From positions 496,001 to 560,000 of the forward strand of contig CP079103.1 in the NCBI GenBank assembly GCA_019285755.1: a DNA stretch of 64,000 bases. Reading direction: 5' to 3'. The position numbers and the translations under genes were made by a program. Below the pieces are notes generated by a model. That model was given only the letters and a program-made list of their open reading frames with translations, searched no databases and was not told the origin of the DNA. Each line of letters opens with the position of its first letter. Position 1 is the first letter of the stretch. Positions 22,980 through 42,777 of the stretch are shown in pieces. The stretch comes from Chitinophaga sp. E66. Lineage in GTDB: Bacteria; Bacteroidota; Bacteroidia; Chitinophagales; Chitinophagaceae.

Positions 22980-23014
22980 GAAACGGCACTGCTTCATTGC
23001 GGTGCCGTTTCTTT
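22980..23014 (+). terminator. Terminator closing the uxaB-to-transporter run
   Basis: gaaacggcac (22980-22989) pairs perfectly with gtgccgtttc (23002-23011), a 10-bp stem followed by a short T stretch. Confidence 0.8.
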
Positions 23015-23018
23015 AGGC

Positions 23019-23106
23019 TGAGTGCTCTCTGAGTGCTTAAAAAGTGCGCTAAGAGTGCATCGGGAGTACTTGCTGAGTACTTAAAGAGTTCTTTCCTGGT
23101 GCTCAA
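23019..23106. repeat. Degenerate 11-bp tandem array, 8 units (tgagtgcttaa type)
   Basis: Eight consecutive 11-bp units, phase kept exactly: tgagtgctctc, tgagtgcttaa, aaagtgcgcta, agagtgcatcg, ggagtacttgc, tgagtacttaa, agagttctttc, ctggtgctcaa. Positions 3-5 (mostly AGT) and 7 are most conserved. It lies between the terminator of the transporter gene and the PKD gene, with no plausible coding frame. Confidence 0.85.
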
Positions 23107-23110
23107 AAAA

Positions 23111-23143
23111 ACGTAGACCTTACGTTGACCTTACGTAGGCCTT
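23111..23143. repeat. 11-bp tandem array, 3 units (acgtagacctt type)
   Basis: acgtagacctt, acgttgacctt and acgtaggcctt in exact 11-bp register, followed by a decayed fourth unit (acctggatact). Its sequence is unrelated to the array immediately upstream but it has the same period. Confidence 0.85.
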
Positions 23144-23238
23144 ACCTGGATACTATCTTGTAACACCTTAGATGCCCCACGCTAAGGTCCCCTGTTGCCA
23201 ATTTTCTCCCACCCGCACCGGGGTATGGCTTATCTAAG

Positions 23239-38600: not shown

Positions 38601-40812
38601 ATGGAAACAATGGAACAGACGGTTAAAAAGAGCTTCCCGGTAACCGGCATGAGCTGCGCAGCTTGCGCCGGTTCCGTGGAAAGCATGTTGCAGGCGCAGC
38701 CCGATGTCATTTCGGCCGCCGTCAACTTCGCCAGCAGCTCCGTGCTGGTAGAATATGCCCCGGCAAGGCCAATCCGGCCGAATGGAAAAAGCGATACAAT
38801 CAGTCGGGTACGACCTGCTGACAGAAGATACCGGCACAGGCCTGGAAGATCACCAGCGCGCCAAATACGCCCAGCTGAAAAAGAGGACCCTCTGGGCCAT
38901 CCTCTTTTCCCTGCCCTGGTAGTGATCGGGATGTTCTTCATGAACATGCCCTACGCCAACGAAATCATGTGGGCGCTCTCCACTCCGGTAGTGCTCGTTC
39001 TGGGCCGCCAGTTCTTCGTGGGCGCTTACAAACAGGCCAGCATGGGCAAGGCGAACATGGATACCCTGGTAGCCCTCAGCACCGGGATCGCTTACGCCTT
39101 CAGCGTCTTCAATACCCTCAATCCCGGCTTCTGGCATAGCCGCGGCCTGCACCCGCACGTATATTTCGAAGCGGCCGCGGTAGTAATCGCATTCATCCTC
39201 TTAGGTAAACTGCTGGAAGAAAGGGCCAAAGCCTCCACCTCCTCCGCCATCAAGAAACTCATGGGGCTGCAGCCCAATACGGTGATCCGCATCTCCGCCG
39301 ACGGACAGGAAACCGTAGTGCCGCTGGCCGAAGTGCAGGTGGGCGACGTTTTACTGGTGAAGCCCGGCGAACAGGTGCCGGTGGATGGTAAAGTAGCAGG
39401 CGGGAAGTCGTACGTTGATGAGAGCATGATCACCGGCGAGCCGGTGGCCGTAGCGAAAGAGCCCGGCGCCGATGTATTCGCCGGTACGCTCAACCAGAAA
39501 GGCAGCTTCCGCCTGAAAGCCTCCCAGGTAGGCGGCGCCACCTTACTCGCACAGATCATCCGGAAAGTACAGGAAGCGCAGGGCTCCAAAGCCCCCGTGC
39601 AGAAGCTCGTCGATAAAGTGGCAGGGATCTTTGTGCCCGTGGTGATCGGTATCGCTTTACTCGCTTTTGCTTCCTGGCTCATCTGGGGCGGTGATAATGG
39701 TTTGACGCAGGGCCTCCTGGCACTGGTAACCGTCCTGGTGATCGCGTGCCCCTGCGCCCTCGGACTGGCCACGCCTACCGCTATCATGGTCGGAATGGGC
39801 AAAGGCGCCGAGAACGGCATCCTCATCAAAGACGCGGAGAGCCTCGAAAAAGCATATCGCATACAGGCGTTGATCCTCGATAAAACGGGTACCATCACCG
39901 AAGGTAAACCCGCCGTGACCAGCGAGGCCTGGCTGTCGGAAGAAGACCGGCTCATGTATTCCGGGCTTTCCTGGCGCTGGAGCGCGAATCGGAACACCCA
40001 CTGGCCGAGGCCGTCGTGAAGCAGTTACAGGGCATTACGCCCGAGAAGTTGCAGCATTTCGAAAGCATTACGGGGCGTGGCGTGAAAGGGAGCGCCCTGG
40101 GCAAAGGGTTCTTCGCAGGCAACCAGCAGCTGCTCGAAGAAAACCACATCCGTATCGATGCATCCTCAAAGCAAAATCCGACGAATGGCTCAATGCGGCT
40201 TACACGGTGATCTGGTTCGCCGATGGACAAAAAGCCCTGGCCGTGATCGCCATCGCAGATAAGATCAAGGCCGGTTCGGCCGAAGCCATTCAAAAGCTGC
40301 AAGGCATGGGCATTGAAGTATACATGCTCACGGGCGACAATGCCCGCACCGCCGCCGCGGTAGCCTCGGAAACAGGTATCCGCCACGTCAAAGCCGGCCT
40401 CATGCCCGACGGCAAGGCTGCCTTCGTAGAGGAGCTGCAGCGGCAAGGAAAGGTGGTAGCCATGGTGGGCGACGGGATCAATGACAGTCACGCCCTGGCG
40501 CAGGCAGATGTGAGCATCGCCATGGGCAAGGGCACAGACATTGCGATGGACGTAGCCATGATGACCCTCATCTCTTCCGACCTCAGGCAGATACCCAAGG
40601 CGATCCGCCTTTCGCGGAAGACGGTGCGCACCATCCGCCAGAACCTTTTCTGGGCCTTTATTTACAACATCATCGGTATCCCCGTTGCGGCGGGCGTGCT
40701 GATCCCCATCACGGGCTTCTCGCTCGATCCGATGCTGGCGGGAGCCGCCATGGCACTGAGCTCTGTGTCTGTGGTAAGCAATAGCCTCCGCCTCAAATTA
40801 TCGAACATTTAA
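38601..40812 (+). CDS. copA: Copper-translocating P1B-type ATPase CopA (five frame breaks)
   Basis: Exports Cu(I) from the cytoplasm. The N-terminal heavy-metal-associated domain has the metal-binding GMSCAACAGS. The actuator domain has DESMITGEPVAV; the membrane metal site is IACPCALGLATPT; the phosphorylation site is LILDKTGTITEGKP; SEHPLAEAVVKQL is the P1B HP motif; the hinge is MVGDGINDSHALAQADVSIAMG; the last helices have NIIGIPVAAG. About 38760-38920 reads as nonsense in the main frame: three one-base losses (near 38762, 38795 and 38920) cancel out and hide there. Two more lie near 39970 and 40165. Repaired length 738. A CopZ-like gene follows. Confidence 0.95.
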
Positions 40813-40839
40813 TCATTCATTATATAAATCCAAAGACAG

Positions 40840-41048
40840 ATGAAAACGCTCAAATTCAAGACGAATATCAATTGCAGTGGTTGTGTGAAAGGCGTAAGCC
40901 CCGCGCTGAACGGTGAAAAGGAAATCGCGCACTGGGAAGTGGATACCAACAACCCCGACAAGATCCTGACCGTCAATACCAGCACCCTGACCCTGAAGAA
41001 GTGGAGGAAACGGTGAAAAAGGCTGGTTTTAAGGCCGAGAAGATTTAA
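40840..41048 (+). CDS. CopZ-like heavy-metal-associated (HMA) copper chaperone (one frame break)
   Basis: A small cytosolic metal chaperone of about 69 residues. It starts MKTLKFKTNINCSGCVKGV, with the CxxC metal site NCSGC, continues as PALNGEKEIAHWEVDTNNPDKILTV, and after restoring one base near 41000 ends PEEVEETVKKAGFKAEKI, the standard beta-alpha-beta-beta-alpha-beta HMA ending. Lying 27 bp after copA, it most likely delivers Cu(I) to that ATPase. Without the repair the frame stops early, so the gene is easy to miss. Confidence 0.85.
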
Positions 41049-41080
41049 TTACGCAGCAGCTAGTGTATAGTGTGACAGGT

Positions 41081-41116
41081 AACCGGTCGTGGCCCTCGGG
41101 CGGCGGCCGGTTTTTT
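41081..41116 (+). terminator. Terminator after the copper operon
   Basis: aaccgg (41081-41086) and ccggtt (41107-41112) with imperfect inner GC pairing make a long hairpin followed by a T6 run. Confidence 0.75.
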
Positions 41117-41336
41117 ATGATATTTGTAAAAGTTTTGTGCATCCGTATTGGCCTGATTTTCGTATATTCAGGGAGCCGGTAGGGCGCTTCTTTTTATGCA
41201 TTCAGTATCAATACATACCGAACCCTTTCATCCCCTACGGAGCCTCCCTTCGCAATGTGGCCCCATGTCAGTCCTATACTATTTTCACGGTAAAGTATCT
41301 TTCCCCGCTTTTAATTGAATGCCAATTAATTGTACG

Positions 41337-41380
41337 CATCAAGTCCGCCTTAAGTCCACATCAAGTCCACCTCAGGTCCG
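41337..41380. repeat. 11-bp tandem array, 4 units (catcaagtcca type)
   Basis: catcaagtccg, ccttaagtcca, catcaagtcca and cctcaggtccg, in exact 11-bp register. Confidence 0.85.
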
Positions 41381-41422
41381 GGTATTATAGTATCATCCTT
41401 CGGTGATCATTCGATAGCCACG

Positions 41423-41466
41423 CGTAGATGCTACGTAGTTATTCCGTACATATTCCGTAGATAACT
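41423..41466. repeat. 11-bp tandem array, 4 units (cgtagttattc type)
   Basis: cgtagatgcta, cgtagttattc, cgtacatattc and cgtagataact, in exact 11-bp register; the first four bases CGTA are invariant. Confidence 0.8.
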
Positions 41467-41569
41467 GCTTGTAATGCCGTTGTGTCTCCTTTCTGCCTCC
41501 CGGATTTCTACCTTCTTTTTACCGACTGTATGGTAACCTTATTGGAATGGTCACTTCCGGAGTATTAAC

Positions 41570-41602
41570 TTATGGGTTCAGTAAGGGCTACTTAAGGGTT
41601 CA
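41570..41602. repeat. 11-bp tandem array, 3 units (ttaagggttca type)
   Basis: ttatgggttca, gtaagggctac and ttaagggttca, in exact 11-bp register with the central GGG fixed. Confidence 0.75.
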
Positions 41603-41915
41603 TGTGTATCTAGTTTATATCAACCAGTACTCCCGTCAATACAGTATCCCTTAACCCTTAGGCTGATATGGCTTTACCCATGGCTACGCTTAACCAGTGC
41701 ATAATCAATGATTTACCAGAAAAACACTACAAAACACTACAAAGTAAGTGTATACGGCGTTTTTCTTTTTCCGCTGCCGGCTTACCGCTACATTTGACCA
41801 GGTTCTTTGAAATATGGTCACAAAAACACGGTAGGAATACTATAACTCGTTGAATAGTAATGAGATGCCTTGTTCAACTTGATGTAACAGTATGTAATTC
41901 AATATATTACACGTT

Positions 41916-41970
41916 CTCGTCTGCCGCTCGTCTGCCCTTCGTCTGCCCCTCGTCTGCCGCTCGTCTGCCG
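41916..41970. repeat. 11-bp tandem array, 5 units (ctcgtctgccg type)
   Basis: ctcgtctgccg, ctcgtctgccc, ttcgtctgccc, ctcgtctgccg and ctcgtctgccg; only the first and last positions vary. This is the best-conserved array of the set. Confidence 0.92.
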
Positions 41971-41980
41971 CTAACTCCCT

Positions 41981-42091
41981 TGTAATCGGCCTGTAATTGG
42001 CCTCTAATTCCCCTCTATTTGGCCTGTAATCGGCCTCTAATCGGCCTGTAATTGGCCTCTAATTCCCCCTCTATTTGGCCTCTAATCGGCC
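41981..42091. repeat. 11-bp tandem array, 10 units (tgtaatcggcc type) with a higher-order 55-bp repeat
   Basis: Ten units: tgtaatcggcc, tgtaattggcc, tctaattcccc, tctatttggcc, tgtaatcggcc, tctaatcggcc, tgtaattggcc, tctaattccccc (one base longer), tctatttggcc, tctaatcggcc. A block of four units starting at 41992 recurs at 42047, showing that multi-unit blocks have been copied. It starts 10 bp after the previous array ends. Confidence 0.92.
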
Positions 42092-42261
42092 TTTTGCGTT
42101 TTTTGCAAATTTTGTCCGGACTTGAATTAGATTAGGGGTATACATGGTGATAGCAAAATTGGTCTGGCTAGTACCGGGCGATAGTAACTCAAATGTCAAT
42201 TATTTGTTGATATAAGTTTACAATTCCGACTTGCAAATGCATCTTCCCTTAAACCGTTGAA

Positions 42262-42777
42262 ATGAAATTTACCCTTTCCTTCATGTGTCTTTTATTATGT
42301 TCCTGCGGTAAGATCCGGGAATGGCGGCTTCAGCGTGCGATTGAAACCTGGGACCGCCGGGTGGCGGAATATCGTATGAAGTGGGGCGAATGGACCGTCA
42401 TGGCGCCGGGCGCGCCGTGTGAAATATACCCAACTGGTGGCCGGGTGGATTCGCCGATGGTGAAGGAAGCATATCTGTTGCTGACGGATGTGCTGATGGC
42501 GGAATGGGTGCTCCGCAGTCAGCTGCCGGAGGTGGATCGGCATATCAGCTGGCCATTGCCGCCGGTCAGGTTGAAGTTGCATGGGTACCTGCGGCAGTAC
42601 AAAGGGTATTATGACAGGGAGGGGAAATTACATGTGCTCGTAAACGCCATTTGGAACCAGGAACCGAAGCTGAAAGGGTTTACCCGGGTGAAAGATGGCG
42701 GTAATCATTACTGGCAGATCTGGATCGATGTAAACGGATTGCGTTTGTATAACCTGGCGGTGAACGGGGAGGCATAA
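42262..42777 (+). CDS. Hypothetical lipoprotein
   Basis: An intact 171-residue protein that I do not recognise. The N-terminus MKFTLSFMCLLLCSCGK is a short lipoprotein signal with two close cysteines, either of which could be lipidated. The body is rich in Trp, Arg and Tyr (EWRLQRAIETWDRRVAEYRMKWGEW, spanning residues 20-44; then YLRQYKGYYDREGKLHVLVNAIW) and ends IWIDVNGLRLYNLAVNGEA. No catalytic motif is evident. It follows the 11-bp repeat region and precedes a small HExxH protein after 179 bp; no functional link is visible. Confidence 0.7.
   Translation: MKFTLSFMCLLLCSCGKIREWRLQRAIETWDRRVAEYRMKWGEWTVMAPGAPCEIYPTGGRVDSPMVKEAYLLLTDVLMAEWVLRSQLPEVDRHISWPLPPVRLKLHGYLRQYKGYYDREGKLHVLVNAIWNQEPKLKGFTRVKDGGNHYWQIWIDVNGLRLYNLAVNGEA

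Follow-up and report, generated by a model that had tools for sequence, protein, structure and literature searches.

Dispersed intergenic repeats that are paired with copies of a gene family and lie beside them have been described as REP/REPIN sequences and their RAYT genes (PMC2817692, PMC3116915, in the parts of these papers drawn on here). Short-period repeats that are mostly intergenic, form many sets per genome and change length in steps of one unit are known as heptamer repeats (TAACTGA sets) from Beggiatoaceae, cyanobacteria and some Bacteroidota, with a period of 7 and, within the portion of the source used, no named cognate gene family (PMC4679880). The archaeal Borg extrachromosomal elements carry tandem repeats in many independent regions, some of which lie between genes and may be regulatory, and for which the excerpted text mentions no gene-linked unit families (PMC9879509). 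The repeats reported here are bacterial, have a period of 11 and are linked to a gene family that we call X. They take the form of direct rows of 11-mers, and a hairpin form occurs in one class of X loci (class II) and in some solo copies, i.e., arrays that stand away from any X gene.

Several differences set these arrays apart from familiar repeat systems. RAYT is a Y1/HUH transposase and REP sequences are palindromes of 20–40 bp, whereas X has no such match, the repeats are tandem rows, and many X paralogs occur per genome. MITEs, like the solo elements, are short gene-less copies between genes that are present or absent among relatives; however, inspection here showed neither terminal inverted repeats nor duplicated target sites, and rows of short units dominate. 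The parC site of plasmid R1 likewise has a promoter flanked by direct repeats of 11 bp, but the present repeats are chromosomal, would number hundreds of copies by extrapolation and have many unit sequences. In CRISPR arrays unique spacers separate the repeats, whereas here the units stand head to tail without spacers. Our literature search found no description of 11-bp arrays in Chitinophaga or of their link to a gene family; X itself has no name, so a search by name was impossible.

Arrays of period 11 in the window and across the genome

The window is a 64,000-nt stretch of Chitinophaga sp. E66 (genome 6.29 Mb, single contig), in which a sequence-only reading had placed five arrays of period 11 within one gene-free kilobase (at 41337, 41423, 41570, 41916 and 41981) and two more at a second site (23019 and 23111). 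TRF backs four of the five, at 41339–41379, 41423–41463, 41916–41972 and 41983–42092, while the one at 41570 stays below both the TRF and the lag-11 threshold, its homologous copies at two other loci (L102, L103) being clear 11-bp arrays; at the second site TRF finds arrays at 23064 and at 23111, the latter start as previously read. Every array of the tabulated set scores as non-coding. In the last array, the four-unit block copied 55 bp further on and the single 12-bp unit are both seen in the sequence, and the 12-bp unit may be an assembly error because its extra base lies in a run of C and the assembly looks rich in frameshifts. A completeness rating of 65% for the genome points to numerous indel errors. 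A copZ-like gene at 40841–41048 of the window has a broken frame.

Two gene-less (“solo”) elements make up the window cluster, with all features on the + strand. The first is a 173-bp dispersed element, with an 88% copy over its 173 bp at L120, that holds array H (41332..41384, 11-bp unit about AAGTCCACCTC) and an array of CGTAGATATTC-like units (the CGTAG array, 41423..41466), both detected by TRF and at lag 11. Array H gave no BLAST match to X upstream regions and is weakly like arrays downstream of two X genes of class III, L097 at E 3.6e-4 and L023 at E 0.004; the CGTAG array is 80% identical over 40 bp to the one that precedes X gene L302 (E 7.6e-6). The parent form of the first element probably lies beside X. 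The second element is clearly tied to X. Its array A (41912..41972, unit GTCTGCCSCTC) and array B (41973..42092, unit ATYGGCCTSTA), each found by TRF, share one continuous register and have related units with an intermediate unit between them. Array A resembles arrays upstream of A-type X genes, and together with the first B units it is 89–91% identical over 73–75 bp to the sequence that precedes L244 and L269, both of them X genes; array B is 82% identical over 112 bp to the upstream region of L277. At the second site, the G and F arrays (23010..23160, + strand, units GAGTGCTTGAA and ACCTTACGTAG, TRF) form a solo copy that is 79% identical over 121 bp to the region upstream of X gene L275. 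A profile search found no X match in the window.

Ahead of array A the second element has a conserved core (41551..41830, + strand), for which E66 has 26 matches at about 17 places (hand count). Core part 1 (41567..41650) consists of 11-bp modules, GGGTTC... and TATATCTAGTG, that are weak in the window copy. A 10-bp A-tract repeat, AAAACACTAC, follows at 41721..41743 (TRF); it resembles 10-bp arrays that lie close to some X genes of class I, and the core region around it is weakly like the region of X gene L251 (E 6.6e-4, and E 8.6e-5 in a second comparison). A promoter-like TACATTTG and then a boxA-like GTTCTTTGA come next (41789..41817); the last part of the core, part 2, closes with a Bacteroidota-type TAnnTTTG box plus a boxA-like sequence. 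A 15-mer of the L021 core copy recurs without mismatch in each of the two 16S-23S spacers (E 0.009, a modest match), and the window copy differs from this 15-mer. Across 15 aligned core copies, one of them from C. deserti, strongly conserved blocks alternate with variable ones and insertions measure 11 and 22 bp; the single-copy spacers between arrays vary in length, so that phase is not kept across the whole element. The core was also considered as a promoter of the next gene and rejected, since it points in the same direction in 7 of the 15 copies with a call, one more being undecided (hand count).

Lag statistics were taken from 844 kb of E66, comprising the window and 39 regularly spaced 20-kb stretches (L083 was left out, as it overlaps the window). 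At lag 11 this sample has 33 merged arrays, against 0, 3, 3, 3 and 2 in five Markov-1 shuffles, and the same 844 kb gave 2 at lag 7, 3 at lag 10, 2 at lag 13 and 5 at lag 14. Lags divisible by neither 3 nor 11 gave 1–7 arrays, and high counts stand at multiples of 3 or 11; an excess at multiples of 3 is expected from coding sequence. Extrapolation from the sample gives about 246 arrays per genome. Seven congeners sampled at 40–60 kb each had 0–2 lag-11 runs, and G025 has 2 arrays in 460 kb, yet an array at both its X loci.

The idea that each locus has a unit of its own did not survive genome-wide comparison, as the units are not locus-private: a query of arrays A plus B has at least 50 matches in E66, at ~39 places (hand count), with 40 of the 55 candidates scored. 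The view that period, more than sequence, holds the family together fared better, given length changes in 11-bp steps and the recurrence of arrays in related genomes, which the earlier reading had proposed to search; its other suggestion, that local copying alone made the arrays, finds no support. A pattern of three A units matched seven genome records, five of them from unrelated bacteria (pattern matches alone) and the others from C. pinensis and C. deserti. An artefact of one assembly, raised as a possible objection, is unlikely because the A unit is also in the C. deserti and C. pinensis records. A single origin for all units was tried as a candidate and found weak, the observed mean being reached by 10 of 500 shuffles; unit pairs with at least eight matches are not enriched (131/500 shuffles).

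Gene family X and the arrays upstream of it

X was found by locus comparison as a roughly 1-kb gene repeated beside A arrays. The protein is about 255 aa long in the alignment, and a query with the first 200 residues found matches in 14 of 16 chosen Chitinophaga genomes; in an even draw of Bacteroidota, X occurs in 20 of 247 genomes and 13 of 122 genera, and E66 has 47 X profile matches, fragments included. The X proteins scanned have no Pfam or NCBIfam match over the cut-off, including none to a Y1/HUH transposase and no recognised DNA-binding domain, and no ribbon-helix-helix match was obtained; PHROG gave nothing better than E 0.03 and the PDB no match up to E 1. The family is apparently undescribed, and puzzling bacterial intergenic repeats are now tied to a specific many-copy protein family that is absent from the domain libraries searched. 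With L249 as the query, X had one plasmid match (Marivirga, 43%) and no phage match. Viral contigs gave no match to one X query, to one core2 pattern or to one E pattern, and one A-like match. Plasmid or phage cargo was rejected as a candidate, one element copy having no match in either collection.

For the array comparison we used 70 X loci from 14 Chitinophaga genomes, which are 70 of roughly 90 matches, some being pieces of one gene. At a lag-11 score of at least 16/22, 55 of the 70 loci have an array in the 650 bp upstream (48 score at least 17) and 0 of 70 in the 650 bp downstream, a count that rises to 1 of 70 when the search is taken out to +1500 bp or the locus end. By genome, arrays occur at 11 of 11 X loci in E66, 11 of 12 in G062, 13 of 15 in G076, 5 of 8 in G020, 4 of 5 in G068, 3 of 3 in G033, 2 of 2 in both G025 and G078, 1 of 3 in G014, and 1 of 2 in each of G012, G072 and G083; the 15 loci without an upstream array above threshold include both G030 loci (0 of 2) and the single G007 locus (0 of 1). 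When the X proteins are clustered at 60% identity, 34 of the 43 clusters have at least one array, and the units form 28 clusters at 9/11. Other lags upstream of X reach 0–2 of 70 loci, the exceptions being lag 10 at 14 loci, lag 19 at 9 and lag 20 at 11. The lag-10 signal comes from separate 10-bp A-tract arrays nearer the X gene, at 14 of 70 loci. These arrays are AAAACGACCC-like, have an A-tract in most units and lie about −130 to −290 bp from the start of the X match; their phased A-tracts would suggest a bend. The 11-bp units themselves do not have phased A-tracts as a feature.

Unit sequence follows protein relatedness. Among 49 X loci compared by pairwise identities, pairs whose proteins are at least 70% identical have a mean unit identity of 0.87 (69 pairs), followed by 0.56 for 50–70% (24 pairs), 0.55 for 40–50% (112 pairs), 0.49 for 30–40% (294 pairs) and 0.45 below 30% (677 pairs), and the comparison against opposite-strand units is flat at 0.44–0.48. 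The Mantel r between unit and protein identity is 0.70 (0/2000 permutations). The unit is common to close relatives within X and differs between distant ones, and the period stays 11. Such coupling is also expected from plain co-inheritance, in which unit and gene travel together and reading of the one by the other is not implied.

In this analysis the X loci were grouped by sequence into classes I–III. Class I genes have direct arrays, and their conserved leader upstream of X (e.g., at L275, L277 and L282) contains a GTAATTAC palindrome as well as a hairpin, GGCAC...GTGCC, that covaries. In class II the start codon is preceded by some five units of 11 bp, four of them full and the fifth running into a hairpin. 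In the class II alignment (15 of about 23 loci, picked for clear arrays, with orthologs included, in nine paralog groups) the 11-bp register is kept and a T is invariant every 11 bp, the units being otherwise different. For the hairpin, 14 of 17 pairs changed on both sides, 84.2% of cells are paired versus 61.9% when shuffled, and the covariation score is 0.643, compared with 0.250 after shuffling and no more than 0.169 after sliding, in a test somewhat favoured by the hairpin having been predicted from the same alignment. Class III is divergent and comprises L023, L097 and about 25 further weak X profile matches in E66; its arrays lie about 740–770 bp downstream of the match at L023 and L097 and are sub-threshold at L022. 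Rfam gave sub-threshold matches only, apart from tRNA, for window positions 40500–42700 and eight X loci.

Two small open reading frames accompany X at some loci, both searched with models seeded from these loci: a divergent HTH-like ORF in 21 of 70, whose label comes from Pfam matches below the cut-off, and in 18 of 70 a membrane-like one of roughly 70 aa. DUF5675 follows X at L248 and L312, and an annotated DUF5675 gene follows X on the Marivirga plasmid. A small conserved membrane-like protein with a APTPPFFQKVRN-like start comes after X at L246, L248 and L312. A small operon of X, DUF5675 and the membrane-like protein is possible.

Solo arrays and the same sites in related species

We counted an array as solo when it lay at least 700 bp from any X gene found, which applies to 25 of the 33 arrays in the 844-kb sample; one of these, at L023 8502, only just passes the limit and belongs with a class III gene. 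A test by pooled-phase unit matching did not discriminate (19 of 25 real versus 14 of 25 shuffled arrays at 0.75) and was replaced by BLAST with a downstream control. BLAST places 21 of the 25 with an X upstream region at E<0.01 (at E<1e-5 for 14 of these) and 1 of 25 with the downstream control. X remains were found at 0 of 20 targeted loci (L102–L121).

Synteny around the window cluster is kept in G025, G062, G076, G060 and G003. At this site E66 has 1.1 kb with the two elements, G025 and G060 have a short spacer only (by eye), G003 has about 330 bp and no arrays (by eye), and G062 and G076 have a different element with 11-bp arrays, whose modules align one to one by eye, with a 22-bp difference and with unlike unit sequences. 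At another site (L104/L159), array A and the core stand at the same place in E66 and C. deserti, 82% identical over 404 bp, with flanking segments at 78–87% and most of the surrounding intergenic sequence not aligning. Elsewhere, one species has a direct-array element where another has a hairpin element or a short gap. No target-site duplication was seen at element ends, and by eye 19 A-array flanks have no ends common to all, the closest empty site (in G025) being too diverged.

Competing explanations of the arrays

Weighing these results, we put a little better than even weight on the arrays being cis-elements of X modules, with the solo arrays as dispersed non-autonomous derivatives; X most likely explains most arrays of E66. 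An array would then be a row of putative recognition sites, one per helical turn, read by a product of the module, either X itself or, at some loci, the small HTH-like protein of the divergent ORF. Moving in steps of 11 bp, slippage and homogenisation would alter how long an array is and what its units read, and the spacing would be kept because the bound protein needs 11 bp between sites. In class II the last units, together with an inverted unit, would also form the hairpin before X, and solo copies would have dispersed and been tolerated between genes. Against this reading stand the 15 X loci without an array above threshold, the downstream arrays of two class III genes, plain co-inheritance as a sufficient source of the coupling, the drop in unit identity to 0.56 already at 50–70% protein identity, the failure of array H to match an X upstream region and the weak match of the core, the lack of a visible target-site duplication, the variable spacers, and the want of a recognised DNA-binding domain in X. 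In a more specific and more tentative version, to which we give somewhat less than even weight, each X paralog would read an 11-bp unit of its own, one per helical turn, and would have spread arrays of that unit over the chromosome, so that code and unit would drift together under a fixed helical spacing and one genome would hold many mutually blind gene-repeat pairs.

The arrays might instead act at the RNA level, as leaders or attenuators of X genes and not as protein-DNA sites, with solo copies as duplicated control regions or the remains of loci that lost X. The covarying hairpins, before the start codon in class II and in the conserved class I leader, point this way, as do the promoter-like and boxA-like sequences of the core and its weak likeness to the region upstream of L251. 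However, two direct arrays that were folded gave structures no better than shuffles (z −0.8 and +1.7), at the 10 loci with a divergent HTH-like gene and an array at threshold the array lies past the 3′ end of that gene and far from the X start (hand check), and the targeted loci yielded no X remains; we hold an RNA-level role to be unlikely, though the most probable of the rivals. Plain minisatellites without a function, produced by slipped replication that favours steps of 11 bp, would account for length changes in 11-bp steps and for the drift of units along an array, but not for the tie to one gene family and to one side of its genes, the covariation, or the retention of array and core at one site in two species, and are correspondingly improbable.

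Lower still stands an iteron or centromere-like site. In plasmid parC, 11-bp repeats are bound by ParR, and the period is the same here, with tandem direct repeats flanking a promoter-like core on both sides in several copies. Against such a role, which we consider very improbable, are the extrapolated 246 or so arrays per genome in many unit families, the lack of a ribbon-helix-helix match in X, and the orientation of A relative to replication direction, 22 to 15 of 37 places (hand count), which has no clear bias and by which a strand polarity along the replicon was rejected. DRT10 appends 9-nt repeats to cDNA (PMC12632851, in the part drawn on here), and the boxA-like leader and tandem repeats of fixed short length would fit a CRISPR-like system or repeats made by a reverse transcriptase, such as DRT10-like telomeric synthesis; but units vary between loci and no Cas1 was found in 4 of 4 genomes searched (the search was positive in 9 of 14 control genomes, and E66 is the genome rated 65% complete), so that this origin is scarcely credible and the core as a CRISPR leader was rejected.

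The link to X, in the cis-element reading that we prefer, offers a testable reason for a period that outlives its sequence. If units and proteins co-evolve by recognition, one genus would hold dozens of natural protein-site pairs, and the code of an unfamiliar DNA- or RNA-binding fold could be read by comparison.

At two loci an IS-like element appears to be inserted in an A array, with a 3-bp duplication, TGC, seen by eye (L102 9188–10588 and L012 6621–8025), and A arrays may serve as landing sites for this element.
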